Source: Oscillospiraceae bacterium | GTDB lineage: Bacteria > Bacillota_A > Clostridia > Oscillospirales > WRJC01 | Assembly: GCA_009785015.1 (NCBI GenBank) | Contig: WQXD01000244.1 | Coordinates: 1 to 5,728 of the forward strand | Direction of reading: 5' to 3' | DNA: 5,728 bases | Made by a program: the position numbers and the translations under genes | Notes under the pieces: model-generated | The model's database searches: none | What the model was told of the DNA's origin: nothing | The model's input: the letters and a program-made list of their open reading frames with translations, nothing else | In this document: positions 1 through 5,728 of the stretch, in pieces | How positions within the stretch are numbered: the first letter of the stretch is position 1 | Layout of the letters: every line of letters begins with the position of its first letter

Positions 1-375
1 CGGATGCCATGCCATATCATATCGGGTCAGTTTTTTGCCCTCCCTGGCCGCTTTGGCTATCTGCTTTTTGCTGTACGCTACATAACCCGATTTCTTTTTC
101 TCCTGGCAAAATCTGATAAACGCGTTACAGCAATCTTTTATCGCCTGTTTCGTCGCGTCATTGCTCACTTTGTACAACCATGCTTTTTCCTGCTTGTGCT
201 CCGTAAACTTTTTTCGGACTTCCGAATCAGACTGGTACTTTTTGTTCGCCTCGTAATACTCCATTTGCACCCCCAGCGTCCAGTTGTACGCATGACGTGC
301 CGCGTCTGCTGTCTCATATAGTTTGCTTTCTTGCTTTTTGTTCGGCAGCAGCATTACTTTTATGCTCTTAATCAT
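1..375 (-). CDS. tnpB: TnpB/OrfB-family RNA-guided nuclease of an IS200/IS605-type element, N-terminal part only
   Basis: Only the first 125 codons are present; the gene runs off the left edge with no stop. Reading the minus strand gives a protein starting MIKSIKVMLLPNKKQ, with ARHAYNWTL near residues 26-34, WLYKVSNDATKQAIKDC near 66-82, AFIRF at 85-89 and KKLTRYDMAWHP at the break. This is the helix-turn-helix N-terminal region of the OrfB_IS605/TnpB family, in the variant with a Lys-rich insertion before the usual PKFK segment. The family consists of RNA-guided DNA nucleases encoded by transposons; the RuvC and zinc-finger parts would lie outside the window. The ATG at 375 is preceded by GGAGG (385-389, nine bases away), and an in-frame TGA at 379-381 rules out a longer start. 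No TnpA gene is seen upstream, so the element may be a solo-tnpB type. Whether the gene is intact cannot be told. Confidence 0.87.
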   Translation of the reverse strand, partial: MIKSIKVMLLPNKKQESKLYETADAARHAYNWTLGVQMEYYEANKKYQSDSEVRKKFTEHKQEKAWLYKVSNDATKQAIKDCCNAFIRFCQEKKKSGYVAYSKKQIAKAAREGKKLTRYDMAWHP

Positions 376-393
376 TTGTCAACGCCTCCACGC

Positions 394-415
394 CAGATAA
401 TAGCTCTTCTATCTG
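394..415 (-). repeat. small inverted repeat in the gap between the GRE stop and tnpB
   Basis: CAGATA (394-399) and TATCTG (410-415) form a perfect 6-bp inverted repeat around a 10-base loop, just upstream of the tnpB ribosome binding site. It lies in the only gene-free stretch between the GRE and tnpB (376-448). IS200/IS605 elements carry subterminal hairpins at their ends, so this could belong to the left end of the element. It has no T-run after it on the minus strand, so it is a poor terminator for the GRE operon. A repeat this short can also occur by chance. Confidence 0.35.
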
Positions 416-448
416 CTTTCTGCCTTAATACAACATATAATTTTTTGA

Positions 449-2608
449 TTAATTTTGAATTATCCTGTCCACGACCAATTTGCGGAAATCCTTGGAAAGC
501 GTGCAGAAGTACACGGAAAAACCCGTGATGCGCACGACCATATCGGGGTATTTTTCGGGATGCTCGTAAGCGTCCGCCAGTTTTTCGCGGTCGATGATGT
601 TGATGTTTACAAGTGAGCCTCCCAATTCGTTGCAGTAAGTCATAAGAAAATTCGTTATGTTTTCAATGCCTTGTTTCCCTTTTGCGAGTGCCGGGTCGAT
701 TTCCAATTGGATCGGGGCGGTGTTGCCCCAGCAGGGCTGCACGGAGGCCACAGCTATGCCCATAGCGGTCAGCGCGCCCGAATCGCGGAACCCGGGTTCG
801 GGATTTGCCCCGTGCGTGATCGGTTCGCCCGCCTTGCGGCCGTTTGGCGTCGCCATCACCGCCCGGCCCATTCCGATCGTGTTCGCCCACGAAAAAAGCC
901 CCGGAATGCAGTTGTACCCGTCGGGCGTATTCGATTTTTTTGTGTGATACACCAGCATATCGGATAGGCGTTTCGCGTTTTCGTCGGCCTTTGTGCCGCC
1001 GTAACCGTAGTGCGGCGTATTTCGCATATACGCGCGCATATATTCGCGCCCCTCCCAGTTTTCGAGCAGGGCGCTTTCGATTTGCCGCCAGCTGAATTTG
1101 CGCTCATCCTCCGCGGCTCTTTCCAATGCGGCGAAACTGTCGGCGACCGTGCCCAAAGCGCAGAAATCTATCCCGAAATTGTAGTAATCGACGCTTCCGT
1201 GGGAAATATCAAACCCTTTTTCGATCGGGCCGTGGCACATGAAGTCGAGGGCCAGTTCCGGTTTTATCAGATGCGAATATTTTACATGCAAATCGATGGA
1301 CTCCTTGATGACGTCCACCGCAATGCCGAGATGGCGCTCAAACAGCTCCCAGAGCCTTTCAACCGACGGTTCGCCGCGCTCCATCATTTCCAAAAAAGCC
1401 ACTTCGAAAACTTTGGCCATATTGACCTTTACGGTGTCGTTGAGCGTGTATTCGGTGCCCGGCAGCGCGCACCAGTTGCAGCCCGTCTTATAGCGCGTGC
1501 GCGCGAGCTCTTCCGGATAGCCGTTTTTCATAAAGCCTTCGACCATGCAGCGGTCGCCGATATAGGCGGGGTTCCCGCATTTGTCCTCAAACATGTATTT
1601 TACACTGTGCGAAACAAACGCGCGGTCGATGTTTTCGTGTATGCGCAGGCAGAGCGCGGTGGGGATTTTCAGCCAATGGCTCGCCTCGATGGCCAGCCAG
1701 GAAATTCTATTCGTTCTGTCGGTGCCGTCGGGCCATGTGCCGCCGATTTCAAAATACTGCGTATCCTTGATCAACAGGCACGCGAGATGATAAGTCGCCT
1801 CATCTTCGCTCAGGGTGCCCTCCGCGATATCCCTGTCGAAGTGGGGCTTGAGCAAAATGTCCAGCGCGCCCCCCGCGCCCGAACCGTTATAGACGCAGGA
1901 TTGCATCAAAAACCACGAAAGCCACTGGCACGCCTCGAGAAACGTGTCGGGTTTGTCGTCCATGAGCTTGAAGTTCATGGCGGCCATGCGCTCGAGATTC
2001 TCTTTGAGATCGGGGTCTGTTTCGGCCTTGGCCGCCTCTCTTGCCGCTTCCGCGTTATGCCGGATCCACTGCCGGATACCGAAGATCACTTTTTCCTCCG
2101 CTTTCAAAAAAGCGAGCTTTTCGGGGTCGTTTTTGTGGACTTCCTGATAACGGCGGATTTTTTCCAATATGCCCTTGTATCCCAGTTCAAAGCCGATGCC
2201 GCCGGCGTCGTGGTGGAAATGGTGCGCCCCGCTCACGCCGGGCACCAAATCGTATTTTCTGTGAAACACGCGGAGCTCGGGATAATCATGCTCCGGGGGC
2301 CACTGGGTCCTTCCGAACCATTCCAATTTGGTCATGTACGCGCCCGCAAGCGAGCTGTACGGATCGATATAGGCGGGATGCGTGTCGAGCAAATCATAGA
2401 AAACGTCCGCCCATTCCGCCGCCCCGCGTATGATATTGTCGGAGTGGACCGACTTGGGTTCCCATTTCCAGTCGTCGGGCGGCACGACAAATCCTTTGTC
2501 GTCGGTGTTGAAAAATCCCGGGTTCTGATATTTCAAAAGCTTCTTTTGCGTCTCCTGCTCCTTTTTTTGTCTCAGAATATCAACTTTTTCACGATAGCCG
2601 AGAGCCAT
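449..2608 (-). CDS. glycyl radical enzyme (pyruvate formate-lyase-like family), function unassigned, atypical active-site loop
   Basis: A 719-residue cytosolic protein of the PFL/GRE family, whose members use a backbone glycyl radical to make a cysteine thiyl radical that starts substrate chemistry. The C-terminal loop is RITGFSVYF (693-701), matching the RVxGYSxxF-type radical loop, with Gly696 the likely radical site 23 residues from the end. The GRE block ATPNGRKAGEP (586-596) is present, followed by GNTAP (628-632). The expected cysteine loop reads TGCNWCALPGTEY (375-387), so Cys377 is the probable thiyl residue. Known dehydratases, lyases and decarboxylases have Cys-x-Glu here; this protein has Trp379 in place of Glu, plus an extra Cys380. 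It is shorter than many GRE eliminases (roughly 780-900 residues). The start is supported by AGGGAA (2615-2620) six bases ahead of the ATG. It lies 36 bases downstream of the sulfatase and is probably co-transcribed with it. No activase gene is in the window. GRE membership is near certain; the substrate is unknown, and PFL itself is unlikely because the Cys-Cys pair is absent. Confidence 0.94.
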   Translation of the reverse strand: MALGYREKVDILRQKKEQETQKKLLKYQNPGFFNTDDKGFVVPPDDWKWEPKSVHSDNIIRGAAEWADVFYDLLDTHPAYIDPYSSLAGAYMTKLEWFGRTQWPPEHDYPELRVFHRKYDLVPGVSGAHHFHHDAGGIGFELGYKGILEKIRRYQEVHKNDPEKLAFLKAEEKVIFGIRQWIRHNAEAAREAAKAETDPDLKENLERMAAMNFKLMDDKPDTFLEACQWLSWFLMQSCVYNGSGAGGALDILLKPHFDRDIAEGTLSEDEATYHLACLLIKDTQYFEIGGTWPDGTDRTNRISWLAIEASHWLKIPTALCLRIHENIDRAFVSHSVKYMFEDKCGNPAYIGDRCMVEGFMKNGYPEELARTRYKTGCNWCALPGTEYTLNDTVKVNMAKVFEVAFLEMMERGEPSVERLWELFERHLGIAVDVIKESIDLHVKYSHLIKPELALDFMCHGPIEKGFDISHGSVDYYNFGIDFCALGTVADSFAALERAAEDERKFSWRQIESALLENWEGREYMRAYMRNTPHYGYGGTKADENAKRLSDMLVYHTKKSNTPDGYNCIPGLFSWANTIGMGRAVMATPNGRKAGEPITHGANPEPGFRDSGALTAMGIAVASVQPCWGNTAPIQLEIDPALAKGKQGIENITNFLMTYCNELGGSLVNINIIDREKLADAYEHPEKYPDMVVRITGFSVYFCTLSKDFRKLVVDRIIQN

Positions 2609-2644
2609 GATAAATTCCCTTTCATAAAATTAATAACTGACGTT

Positions 2645-3982
2645 TCACGTTAAAGTGTACCTTTCGGCAAATTTGGCATTCCATTCGCGCTCGATTTGTT
2701 CTCGCCATTTGGTGGCCTCGGCGTTCAGCTTTTGCGCGAGTTCCGGCATTGTTTCTGCGAGGTTTGTTTTTTCGGAGGGATCCTCTGCGAGATTTGCCAG
2801 AAACACGGGCGCGATTTCGCCGTCGGAGAAATCGCCTTCGTACAGCTGCCCGTTTTGCACGAGCTTGTAATCCCCATGGCGCACGGCGGTTTGCGGGCCC
2901 ATTTCCCAAAACAGCATATCGTGGACCTGTTCACTGCCGCCGCACAGCGCCGGCATGATATCGGCTCCGTCGAGCTCATATCCGACGGGGTCCCCTCCTG
3001 CGGCCTTGAGCACCGTCGGGAATATGTCCATTGAAGCCACCGGTATGTCTATAACCTGGCCGGGGGCGATTTTTGCCGGATAGCGGATGATTCCCGGCAC
3101 GCGTATGCCGCCCTCGAACAGGCTGAATTTATGGCCTTTGAATATCCCCGCCGAACCGCCGTAATACGGGTCGGGCGTCCCGTCGAGCCAGTTGCGCGAT
3201 TCGCGGGAGGGCCCGTTGTCGCTCTGGTAATATATGATCGTATCGTCGTCTATGCCAAGGCGCGCGAGCTCCGCATTTATTTCGCCTATCCCGTCGTCGA
3301 CCGCCGAAATCATCGCCGCCATGACCTGCCGGTCCCACGGCAGATGGGCGAACCTGTCCATATATTTTTTCGGGGCGTGCATCGGGTAATGCGGCGCGTT
3401 ATATCCGAGGTACAGCAAAAACGGCTTGTCGCCTTTTGATTTTTCGCGTATATACCCCACCGCTTTTTCGCTTATCAATTCTGTGAAATATCTGCCGTTT
3501 TCATATGTTTCCAGGTCGTTTTCCCATAAATCGTGGAGCGGATTGTGCGGGCCGCCCCAGTAAAAAATATGCGAATAATAGTCGATGCAGCCCGCCATGA
3601 AACCGTAAAAATAATCGAACCCGTTTGAGAGCGGGCGGCAATTTTGCGCCAGCCCGAGATGCCACTTGCCTATGCACGCCGTGTCATAGCCCTGTTTTTT
3701 GAGCGCGGAGGCGATAGTCGGCGTATCGGGCATAAGCCCCGAGGCGCGCCGGTGCCCGGCGAGTATGGAGCGTACCCCCGCGTTTGCCGGATACCGTCCG
3801 GTGAGCAAAGCGGCGCGGGAGGGAGAACACACGGGACTGTTGGAGTACATGCAGGTAAATCTTGCCCCGCCCGCGGCGAGCGAATCGATATGCGGCGTCG
3901 CGAAGTCATTACTTCCCATACAGGATAAATCCGCGTATCCCTGGTCGTCCGTCATTATGATGATCACATTTGGTTTTTTCAC
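2645..3982 (-). CDS. cytosolic formylglycine-dependent sulfatase (type I sulfatase / alkaline phosphatase superfamily)
   Basis: Hydrolyses a sulfate ester; the substrate is not evident. Numbering from the GTG start (445 residues): KKPNVIIIMTDDQG (2-15) supplies the metal-binding Asp12 and Asp13. VCSPSRAALLTGR (51-63) is the sulfatase signature, with Cys52 the residue oxidised to formylglycine. GKWHLG (105-110) gives Lys106 and His108, APHYP (196-200) gives His198, SDNG (254-257) gives the metal ligands Asp255 and Asn256, and FKGHKFSLFEGGIRVPG (281-297) completes the active site. The C-terminal subdomain includes the usual DPSEKTNLAE segment. All expected catalytic residues are present. There is no signal peptide: the N-terminus goes straight into the first beta strand, so the enzyme should act in the cytoplasm, unlike many polysaccharide sulfatases. 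ATG codons at 4003 and 3991 are also in frame, but GTG 3982 is preferred from the ribosome binding site. First gene of an operon with the GRE. Being Cys-type, it needs a maturase, which is not encoded here. Confidence 0.95.
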   Translation of the reverse strand: MKKPNVIIIMTDDQGYADLSCMGSNDFATPHIDSLAAGGARFTCMYSNSPVCSPSRAALLTGRYPANAGVRSILAGHRRASGLMPDTPTIASALKKQGYDTACIGKWHLGLAQNCRPLSNGFDYFYGFMAGCIDYYSHIFYWGGPHNPLHDLWENDLETYENGRYFTELISEKAVGYIREKSKGDKPFLLYLGYNAPHYPMHAPKKYMDRFAHLPWDRQVMAAMISAVDDGIGEINAELARLGIDDDTIIYYQSDNGPSRESRNWLDGTPDPYYGGSAGIFKGHKFSLFEGGIRVPGIIRYPAKIAPGQVIDIPVASMDIFPTVLKAAGGDPVGYELDGADIMPALCGGSEQVHDMLFWEMGPQTAVRHGDYKLVQNGQLYEGDFSDGEIAPVFLANLAEDPSEKTNLAETMPELAQKLNAEATKWREQIEREWNAKFAERYTLT

Positions 3983-3992
3983 AAAAATCATG

Positions 3993-3998
3993 CCCCCT
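3993..3998 (-). promoter_or_regulatory. ribosome binding site that decides the sulfatase start
   Basis: AGGGGG on the minus strand lies ten bases ahead of GTG 3982 and pairs with the 16S anti-Shine-Dalgarno sequence with one G-U pair. It lies downstream of the in-frame ATG at 4003 and only one base from the ATG at 3991, so it can serve neither. No other purine-rich site is seen ahead of 4003. Starting at GTG gives the usual sulfatase N-terminus (M-K-K-P-N-V). Confidence 0.65.
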
Positions 3999-4020
3999 GA
4001 CATATATTATCAATTGCTTT

Positions 4021-4031
4021 ATTATATCACA
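4021..4031 (-). promoter_or_regulatory. extended -10 promoter for the sulfatase-GRE operon
   Basis: The minus strand reads TGTGATATAAT: a perfect TATAAT (4021-4026) with the TGn extension and the TRTG-type bases before it. No convincing -35 hexamer is seen at 16-18 bases, which is common for extended -10 promoters. Transcription would begin near 4014, leaving a leader of about 30 bases before the GTG start. That would place only about ten bases ahead of the ATG at 4003, another reason to prefer GTG. Confidence 0.65.
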
Positions 4032-4047
4032 TTTGTTTTTATATCTT

Positions 4048-4066
4048 TGAATTTTTTGTGAATTTT
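4048..4066 (+). repeat. 8-bp direct repeat one helical turn apart, between the divergent promoters
   Basis: TGAATTTT occurs at 4048-4055 and again at 4059-4066, an 11-base period. It lies just upstream of the left-facing promoter and about 35-50 bases upstream of the right-facing one. This is where an activator or repressor of both transcripts could bind. The stretch is AT-rich, so chance repetition is quite possible. Confidence 0.3.
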
Positions 4067-4095
4067 GAAGTGATTGGCTGTTTTATCGTTTTGGA

Positions 4096-4106
4096 TGTGA
4101 TATAAT
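4096..4106 (+). promoter_or_regulatory. extended -10 promoter for the aldo/keto reductase gene
   Basis: TGTGATATAAT, with a perfect TATAAT at 4101-4106 and TG at 4098-4099. The best -35 hexamer at a 17-base spacing (4078-4083, CTGTTT) is poor, as expected for an extended -10 site. The start would be near 4113, giving a leader of about 29 bases before ATG 4142. The geometry mirrors the promoter on the other strand: 36 bases from the -10 to the start codon here, 39 there. Confidence 0.68.
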
Positions 4107-4141
4107 TGTCATCATAAAATTGATTTTAGAGGGTTTGTGAA

Positions 4142-5191
4142 ATGAAAAAAAGAAAAATCGGGTCGGAAATAGAGATAAGCCGGATGGGAATGGGCTGCTG
4201 GTCGTTTGGCGGAGGGGAATACTGGGGGGCGCAAAGCCAAAAGGACGTCGAAACGGTCGTATGCAAAGCGTTGGATTGCGGCGTGAATTTTTTTGACACT
4301 GCGAGAATGTACAATGACGGCGAAAGCGAAAAGTCGCTTGGCTTGGCGTTGAAGGGGCGAAGGCATGAGGCCGTCGTCTGTTCAAAAGTGTCGCCCGCGA
4401 AAGCGTATTTCAAAACGCTGAAACAGGAATGCGAGGCGTCGCTTTTCAACCTTCGCACGGATTACTTGGATATCTATATGATGCACTGGCCCATCAACGC
4501 GTTCGGAATCAGGCATTTTACCGAAGACCCCGCAGTCATCGAAAACCCCCCGTCCGCCGCCGAGGCGTTCGGGGCGCTTTCCGATTTGAAAAAAGAAGGC
4601 AAAATCCGCGCGATAGGGGTGAGCAACTTCGGTTTGACGCAAATGAAAGAAGCGCTTGGTTTATGCCCCGAAATGATTGTGAACGAAATGTCGTACAATA
4701 TCATCTCGCGCGCGATAGAAGCGGAAATAATACCGTTCTGCAAACAAAACGACATATCGCTTATCACCTCGATGGCCCTGATGCAGGGCATTTTGAGCGG
4801 AAGATACGCCAAATTCGACGACATACCTCCCCATCAGGCGCATTCGCGGCATTTCAAAAACGAGCGGGGGCAGGGGACTTCGCGCCACTTTGAAGAGGGC
4901 GCGGAAGACGAAATCATGGAAGTGCAAAAAACGCTGGCTGAAATTTCGGCGGAACTGGGCATTTCAATCGCGCAGCTGTCCGTCGCATGGATATTTGCAA
5001 ATGAAGCGGTCGACTGCGCGCTGCTCGGCTCGCGGAACGAAACCGAGCTTTTGGAAAATATAAAGGCGGCGGATATTGTTTTGCCGGGCGACGTGATCGC
5101 GCAAATCGGCGCGGTGAGTTTGCCCGTTTTAAAAAAACTCGGCAACAACGCCGATTATTATGAAAATTCAAAAAACAGCAGGATATATTGA
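4142..5191 (+). CDS. aldo/keto reductase family oxidoreductase
   Basis: A 349-residue cytosolic NAD(P)H-dependent reductase of the aldo/keto reductase (beta/alpha)8-barrel family, which interconverts carbonyls and alcohols. The full catalytic tetrad is visible: Asp52 and Tyr57 in NFFDTARMYNDGE, Lys82 in VCSKV, and His115 in YMMHWP. GVSNF (159-163), MSYN (183-186) and the cofactor-binding GSRNETELLENI (296-307) are typical. It resembles the soluble bacterial YhdN/GSP69-like group by overall pattern, but the substrate cannot be read from sequence. The start is supported by AGAGGG (4128-4133), eight bases before the ATG, and by the promoter ahead of it. It is transcribed away from the sulfatase-GRE operon from a matching promoter, which suggests but does not prove a shared pathway, for example reduction of an aldehyde or ketone made by the GRE. 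Its TGA stop shares one base with the next gene's ATG. Confidence 0.95.
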   Translation: MKKRKIGSEIEISRMGMGCWSFGGGEYWGAQSQKDVETVVCKALDCGVNFFDTARMYNDGESEKSLGLALKGRRHEAVVCSKVSPAKAYFKTLKQECEASLFNLRTDYLDIYMMHWPINAFGIRHFTEDPAVIENPPSAAEAFGALSDLKKEGKIRAIGVSNFGLTQMKEALGLCPEMIVNEMSYNIISRAIEAEIIPFCKQNDISLITSMALMQGILSGRYAKFDDIPPHQAHSRHFKNERGQGTSRHFEEGAEDEIMEVQKTLAEISAELGISIAQLSVAWIFANEAVDCALLGSRNETELLENIKAADIVLPGDVIAQIGAVSLPVLKKLGNNADYYENSKNSRIY

Positions 5192-5728
5192 TGTATGGGA
5201 AAAATAACTGTCAAAAACCTACGACATTATTGGCGCTGTGCATACTCTTGTCTGCATCGGCGATTGCCGCGGAAAAAAATTCCGCCATATCAGTGGAGTA
5301 TTTGCCTGATACGAATTATATTTCCGAATTTGAAAATCTAAAAGATGATATTGTTTGGCGTGTAAATATTATCTATGAGAGACAAAACGAAAACGATAAA
5401 ACTTTATACGGTGTAAAACCTATCACGGAAGACAATATTGATTTTGCCAAGTCCTACAAAACATATCTCGATTTTTGGACCGGCATCGAATCTGCGGAAA
5501 GCCTGAAAGCGCATTTGGAAAAGTGCGGCTATTATTGGTCGGTTCCGGTGACAACCGGAAAAGCATATTATATCGTCAATATAGAAAAAGGATTGCCGTT
5601 ATCAGATGAAAGAAAATGGATTATAGGGAGCATTGGATATTTTTTCGATGAATTAACGCCGTATGAATATTTACAAAAATACAGCGATGACAGCGGACTG
5701 GATATAGTTCGTAAAAACAATATGTATC
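5191..5728 (+). CDS. exported protein of unknown family, N-terminal part
   Basis: An open frame of 179 codons, still open at the right edge. It starts at the ATG overlapping the reductase stop (TGATG), with AGGA at 5180-5183, seven bases upstream, as ribosome binding site; translation is probably coupled. Residues 1-27 form a Sec signal peptide: Lys4 and Lys9, a hydrophobic core TLLALCILLSASAIA (12-26), and a likely cleavage after Ala26 or Ala27. Cys17 sits inside the core without a proper lipobox, so this is not an obvious lipoprotein. The mature part is rich in Tyr, Asp, Glu and Lys, with no further membrane segment. I recognise no domain. It is clearly more AT-rich than the genes before it: bases 5341-5400 hold 17 G/C of 60, against 30 of 60 at 5041-5100. 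This may mean a different origin or weak codon selection. That it is real is supported by the signal peptide, the ribosome binding site and the long open frame. Confidence 0.78.
   Translation, partial: MYGKNNCQKPTTLLALCILLSASAIAAEKNSAISVEYLPDTNYISEFENLKDDIVWRVNIIYERQNENDKTLYGVKPITEDNIDFAKSYKTYLDFWTGIESAESLKAHLEKCGYYWSVPVTTGKAYYIVNIEKGLPLSDERKWIIGSIGYFFDELTPYEYLQKYSDDSGLDIVRKNNMY

Follow-up and report, generated by a model that had tools for sequence, protein, structure and literature searches.

A sizeable conserved clade of glycyl radical enzymes with a Cys-x-Trp catalytic loop, probably acting on sugars

The function of a glycyl radical enzyme (GRE) is often read from the residues of its Cys loop. 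In the GRE eliminases (glycerol and propanediol dehydratases, CutC, HypD, IslA, HpsG, PflD and YbiW) this loop carries the Glu of a Cys-x-Glu (CXE) motif, which two reports (PMC8473560, PMC7077986) describe as a feature of this group and, for HypD, as adjoining His160. PFL, a member of the same superfamily, has a Cys-Cys pair. In this work we analysed a GRE gene in a 5,728-nucleotide stretch of DNA from an Oscillospiraceae bacterium (contig WQXD01000244.1, positions 1 to 5,728; hereafter the window), whose product, P0001, has neither of these motifs. Judged from sequence, P0001 belongs to a sizeable and conserved clade of Cys-x-Trp GREs, which lies within the known superfamily and has an altered catalytic loop. 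Since many members of the family are found among genes of sugar breakdown, the enzyme probably performs a radical step on sugars. A GRE able to function in the absence of the CXE Glu would reveal to what extent the radical mechanism relies on this base.

The gene occupies positions 449..2608 of the minus strand, starts with ATG and encodes 719 amino acids without internal stops. Its product matched the PFL-like domain of Pfam (PF02901) with 263 bits (cut-off 24.3) and the Gly_radical domain with 63 bits (above the Pfam cut-off), and its AlphaFold model (pLDDT 93.8, pTM 0.93) displayed the GRE fold. The Gly loop VRITGF (residues 692-697, positions 518..535, minus strand) contains the radical Gly696 (521-523); it is unbroken (VRITGFSVYF) and follows the published RVxG[FWY]-type pattern with Ile replacing Val. 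The Cys loop TGCNWCALPG (residues 375-384, positions 1457..1486, minus strand) contains Cys377 (1478-1480), Trp379 (1472-1474) and Cys380 (1469-1471). These domain, Gly loop, Cys and fold tests identify P0001 as a member of the GRE superfamily. In a profile-profile alignment Trp379 fell on the CXE Glu and His130 on His160 of HypD. The exchange of Glu for Trp noticed in the initial annotation is real.

Conservation of the loop was determined in two sets of sequences: the query with the best 120 of 2275 homologues (121 rows, 45-88% identical), and 42 distinct members from the sampled genomes and one plasmid, all scoring more than 700 bits against the family profile (the next-best GRE scored 284 bits). 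Both sets were chosen by score, so the Trp counts are independent of the motif. Trp379 was invariant in both (121/121 and 42/42). Cys377, the catalytic residue, was kept in all 121 rows, the radical Gly in all 120 rows reaching its column, and the 42 members shared a Gly-Cys-(H/N/S/G)-Trp loop. Cys-x-Trp occurred in none of 40 other GREs examined (30 Cys-x-Glu, 6 Cys-Cys, the latter being PFL rows); the remaining 4 of the 40 had neither motif, so that a GRE devoid of the Glu is not unique. Position 378 was occupied by His, Asn or Ser throughout the 121 rows, and the adjacent Cys-Cys of PFL was absent. The second Cys of the Cys-Asn-Trp-Cys loop, which had been described together with the Trp as a peculiarity of this protein, fared differently from the Trp, which belongs to the whole clade: position 380 was Cys in 80 of the 121 rows (S 15, M 10, T 6, F 6, G 2, V 1, A 1) and in only 3 of the 42 locus members (Met 28, Thr 7, others 4). 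Because of this variability Cys380 cannot be a catalytic residue shared by the clade, and a role as PFL-like partner Cys was ruled out.

To place the clade, a maximum-likelihood tree was built with the loop columns removed, using 74 of 113 rows. With a minimum length of 600 residues, it took in every other Cys-x-Trp row and the complete set of non-Cys-x-Trp rows (HPAD, IslA, HpsG and BSS rows were outside). In the tree and in the residue comparison described below the Cys-x-Trp rows were chosen by the motif, and 100% Trp is there by construction. A long branch (drawn length 1.54, SH-aLRT 100) separated 36 Cys-x-Trp rows from the 38 others, and the same split (36 vs 26) was obtained after dropping the six PFL rows and six long-branch rows. 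The tree split and the invariance of the Trp show that this residue marks a clade and is not the result of drift. P0001 exceeded no NCBIfam cut-off, IslA and BssA models not being among those listed. The equivalogs for PFL, CutC, HypD, HpsG/HpfG, PRK09983, IAD and HPAD gave at best 206.7 of 1000 bits (cut-offs 994-1150; PFL itself 79 bits, cut-off 994), and the PFL2-3 subfamily model gave 229.1 bits (cut-off 678.2). We are highly confident that the Cys-x-Trp proteins are active GREs and that their clade differs from the families examined here; P0001 itself falls outside these families, the tree being without HPAD, IslA, HpsG and BssA rows.

The GRE eliminases and the clade have in common the fold over nearly the whole length, the Gly loop, the catalytic Cys, the N-terminal His (His160 in HypD) and, in most relatives, an adjacent activase. 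They differ in the loop, where the clade has an invariant Trp instead of the CXE Glu and does not conform to the CXE motif. The eliminases are about 21-24% identical to P0001, and they are longer (765 amino acids in PflD to 847 in the CutC row) than the clade GREs (about 720). By eye, the loop of E. coli PflD (GCVELSIPGRTYGLHD) looks nearest to that of the clade (GCNWCALPGTEYTLND). PflD and YbiW of E. coli are Cys-x-Glu proteins located on the opposite side of the tree branch, and the titles of PDB entries 8id0 and 8id7 give as their bound ligands 1,5-anhydromannitol-6-phosphate and 1,5-anhydroglucitol-6-phosphate, which have sugar-like rings. Another non-canonical branch of GRE homologues are the AAREs, which, according to PMC11528403, occur mostly in metagenome-assembled genomes (MAGs) and replace the radical Gly by Ala, Ser or Thr. 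In contrast, the clade keeps Gly696 and has an altered Cys loop, thus AARE membership of P0001 was ruled out. Several clade members (P0004, P0005, P0010 and others) carry the database names 'formate C-acetyltransferase' or 'formate acetyltransferase', and these names are contradicted by the loop, in which the Cys-Cys of PFL is absent. No account of a Cys-x-Trp GRE was found in the openly licensed literature, a scope that mostly excludes subscription papers; PMC6386719 cites an older grouping labelled 'GREs of unknown function', which may include such sequences.

Other GRE branches with unusual loops were encountered in the same material (L003, L112, L119, L120, L122, L128, L133-L137, L140 and L141; genomes G001, G421, G490 and G722). 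Among them were the Gly loops RVCGW, RVWGW and RIGGYSD and the Cys loops GCYE, ACWE, STCVE, GCFN and GCWG; genome G421 alone had 15 PFL-like matches.

Besides Trp379, several residues distinguish the clade or link it to the eliminases. His130 (positions 2219..2221, minus strand), the counterpart of the HypD His160, was His in each of the 118 clade rows that cover this position and is common to at least 70% of the Cys-x-Glu rows. Asp391 (1436..1438, minus strand) aligned in the profile-profile comparison with the Asp at Cys+14 of a propanediol-dehydratase-like GRE (L104); it was invariant in the clade (121/121 and 42/42), whereas Asp was found there in only 4 of 30 Cys-x-Glu rows. Arg372, Tyr285, Asp282, Glu451, Asp481, His599, Gln624, Asn668, Thr695, which adjoins the radical Gly696, and Arg709 are among the residues that are conserved in at least 95% of the clade and that Cys-x-Glu rows seldom or never have; they may serve in acid-base catalysis or in binding. 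Tyr285 was present in 100% and Tyr387 in 96% of the clade. The signature of the clade is Gly-Cys-(His/Asn/Ser)-Trp...Gly-x-Glu-Tyr...Asp.

The closely related gene of locus L001 encodes a protein identical to P0001 in 545 of 718 residues (76%). The nonsynonymous divergence of the pair (dN) was 0.18 and the synonymous divergence (dS) 3.1, which is saturated; a dN/dS ratio far below 1 fits purifying selection on P0001. Together with the invariance of the Trp, this rules out that Trp379 arose by drift or marks a pseudogene. With a full open reading frame (ORF), a preserved radical loop and relatives that keep the Trp, the protein is intact, as had been proposed, and very likely catalytically active.

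The genes around 41 relatives were examined, using rough gene calls. In 35 of the 41 loci a radical-SAM activase with the same orientation as the GRE was located no more than 350 bp from it. Among the remaining six, L074 had an activase 3.6 kb away on the opposite strand, and five had no called activase, at least one of these (L036) lying at a contig end. For the other operon neighbours Pfam families were tallied for 105 of 145 genes, with the activases set apart; the other 40 of the 145 were judged uninformative by eye and excluded, which may have inflated the share of sugar-related families. The most frequent among the 105 were Gfo/Idh/MocA oxidoreductases (22), ABC permeases (16), xylose-isomerase-like TIM barrels (10), LacI-type sugar-binding proteins (9) and GntR (8). 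Single loci contained GlcNAc 2-epimerase (L089), GH38 (L091), GH95 and GH3 (L086), GH130 (L022), GH28 (L074), SGNH esterases (L078), a carboxylesterase (L097) or MR_MLE proteins (L093, L035), and the L029 locus contained UxaC, UxuA and a mannitol-dehydrogenase-type enzyme. Gfo/Idh genes were present in 19 of the 41 test loci (7 of the 14 from the control genomes) vs 2 of 20 control stretches, and ABC permeases in 16 of 41 vs 4 of 20; the control stretches were hand-picked from ten of the same genomes, and because the test loci had served to train the profiles, the contrast is exaggerated by an unknown amount. Sugar-type neighbourhoods in many members make a carbohydrate the likely substrate of the clade, whose reaction would then be a gap in anaerobic carbohydrate metabolism.

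Some details of these loci deserve mention. L029, L075 and L077 share a block in which activase and GRE are accompanied by two cupin-type genes, one of them weakly similar to mannose-6-phosphate isomerase, with UxaC-, UxuA- and mannitol-dehydrogenase-type genes nearby. A gene for an MR_MLE protein (enolase superfamily) lies directly downstream of the GRE in two loci (L093:10255-11466 and L094:1344-2555), and it is possible that its product catalyses the next step of the pathway. In L001, a gene taken by eye as a solute-binding protein matched no Pfam family, and a guess that L001:12719-13927 encodes a glycoside hydrolase was dropped for the same reason.

Our preferred reading, to which we assign a probability of about 0.42, is that of a competent GRE clade performing radical C-O elimination on carbohydrates, with Trp in the place of the base. 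The radical-SAM activase, whose gene adjoins that of the GRE in most relatives, would generate the Gly696 radical, which would take a hydrogen from Cys377 to yield a thiyl radical, both residues being conserved. The thiyl radical would then attack a sugar or sugar acid positioned above the Cys loop and abstract a hydrogen from one of its carbons. There Trp379, in the position of the eliminase Glu, may offer an aromatic platform for the sugar ring. In the following step, the weakest of the scheme, the substrate radical would lose its leaving group by C-O cleavage, perhaps with acids like His130 and Asp391 assisting in place of the CXE Glu, and Cys377 would finally have its hydrogen returned. 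In the lineage of the window, a sulfated sugar might first be desulfated by the sulfatase of the apparent operon (see below), giving the substrate pool. The different chemistry or new substrate class envisaged in the initial annotation is plausible, with neighbourhoods that favour carbohydrates.

Less likely is that the clade represents a separate mechanistic class, which would dispense with the CXE base in its radical chemistry, act on intact sugar rings or glycosides and use the Trp as carbohydrate-stacking platform, for example as a radical lyase removing an O-linked group from a sugar. If true, this would constitute a hydrolase-independent, oxygen-free route to dismantle decorated sugars. 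Counting against C-O elimination, among the structures listed for comparison, which do not exclude families outside that list, a decarboxylase fitted P0001 as well as the eliminases did; this lowered our estimate for that reaction and raised that for a C-C lyase or decarboxylase, which would act with a PFL-like outcome on keto-acids or keto-sugars from uronate or aldonate pathways and which we still regard as improbable. We are similarly sceptical of a sugar-acting enzyme that is not an eliminase, namely one that epimerises or isomerises a sugar or sugar acid by a radical route: Cys377 would abstract the hydrogen, which another donor would possibly return, no leaving group would be lost and no CXE base would be needed. 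The lack of the CXE Glu, the clade-conserved Tyr285 and Tyr387 as possible hydrogen donors and the isomerase and epimerase families among the neighbours are in line with such a reaction, but the loop has no second invariant Cys, position 380 being variable, and we know of no GRE epimerase.

A bond-forming reaction, in which the Cys loop would bind a co-substrate and offer no base, is very improbable. The X-succinate synthases (BSS, MASS) have a fumarate-binding Arg (Arg508/Arg492) at Cys+15; residue 392, which has this spacing, was Arg in 0/121 and 0/42 clade sequences in an alignment without any BSS row, and the neighbours look catabolic. That P0001 is a decayed or regulatory copy, inactive after losing the Glu by drift, is hardly credible: the missing activase in the window and a TnpB-type gene about 73 bp downstream, a sign that the locus was perhaps rearranged, would agree with it, but the invariant Trp, the intact Gly and Cys loops, the low dN against a saturated dS and the activase adjoining the GRE in most relatives (see above) speak against it.

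Around the L001 genome (an Oscillospiraceae MAG), members of the clade were detected in 3 of 398 genomes sampled from its phylum, in 12 of 396 from its order, in 20 of 200 from its family (single-sequence search, 1e-150) and in 9 of 60 of its relatives; in two wider samples (1/17 and 1/10) they were found in the centre genomes only. Every count includes its centre genome, and the phylum and order searches scored at most two candidates per genome. The hosts are Clostridia-type MAGs and a named Bacteroidota strain, to which the database names of the listed homologues add Treponema and Anaerolineales. The named strain, Persicobacter psychrovividus NBRC 101262, has on plasmid pPP6 a 44%-identical copy directly adjoining an annotated activating protein and near a glycoside hydrolase and SusCD-type genes. 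A pattern scan of viral contigs yielded 23 matching stretches, none of them a relative.

In the window the GRE gene is preceded by a sulfatase gene (2645..4003, minus strand; Pfam Sulfatase, 218 bits), whose product has a CSPSR motif and no obvious signal peptide, both judged by eye. The two genes share a strand, and only 36 bp separate the sulfatase stop from the GRE start; this short gap and the lack of an evident signal peptide suggest, again by eye, that they are probably co-transcribed and that both products are cytoplasmic. No homologue of the sulfatase was found near other members (blastp 1e-5, ORFs longer than 250 amino acids in loci L001-L143, Pfam-level relatives lying outside this search), which rules it out as a general partner of the family; it is thus a clue to the substrates on which this lineage may draw and not to the reaction of the clade. 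An aldo/keto reductase gene (4142..5191, plus strand; Pfam Aldo_ket_red, 215 bits, below every NCBIfam cut-off) diverges from the sulfatase-GRE pair, and its product had only weak matches, of about 30% identity, in L030 and L080. There were no Rfam matches in the window, and a promoter scan of 3900-4250 gave 2 sites vs 1.2 expected, from which nothing was inferred. A further ORF, open at the window end, runs on the plus strand from 5188 to 5727; by eye its start resembles a signal peptide, and it matched neither Pfam nor NCBIfam. At the other end, where no activase is present among the ORFs of the 5.7 kb, the TnpB-type gene (IS605 family; 1-375, minus strand) begins beyond the GRE stop codon and is cut off by the window edge; it may lie between the GRE and its activase.
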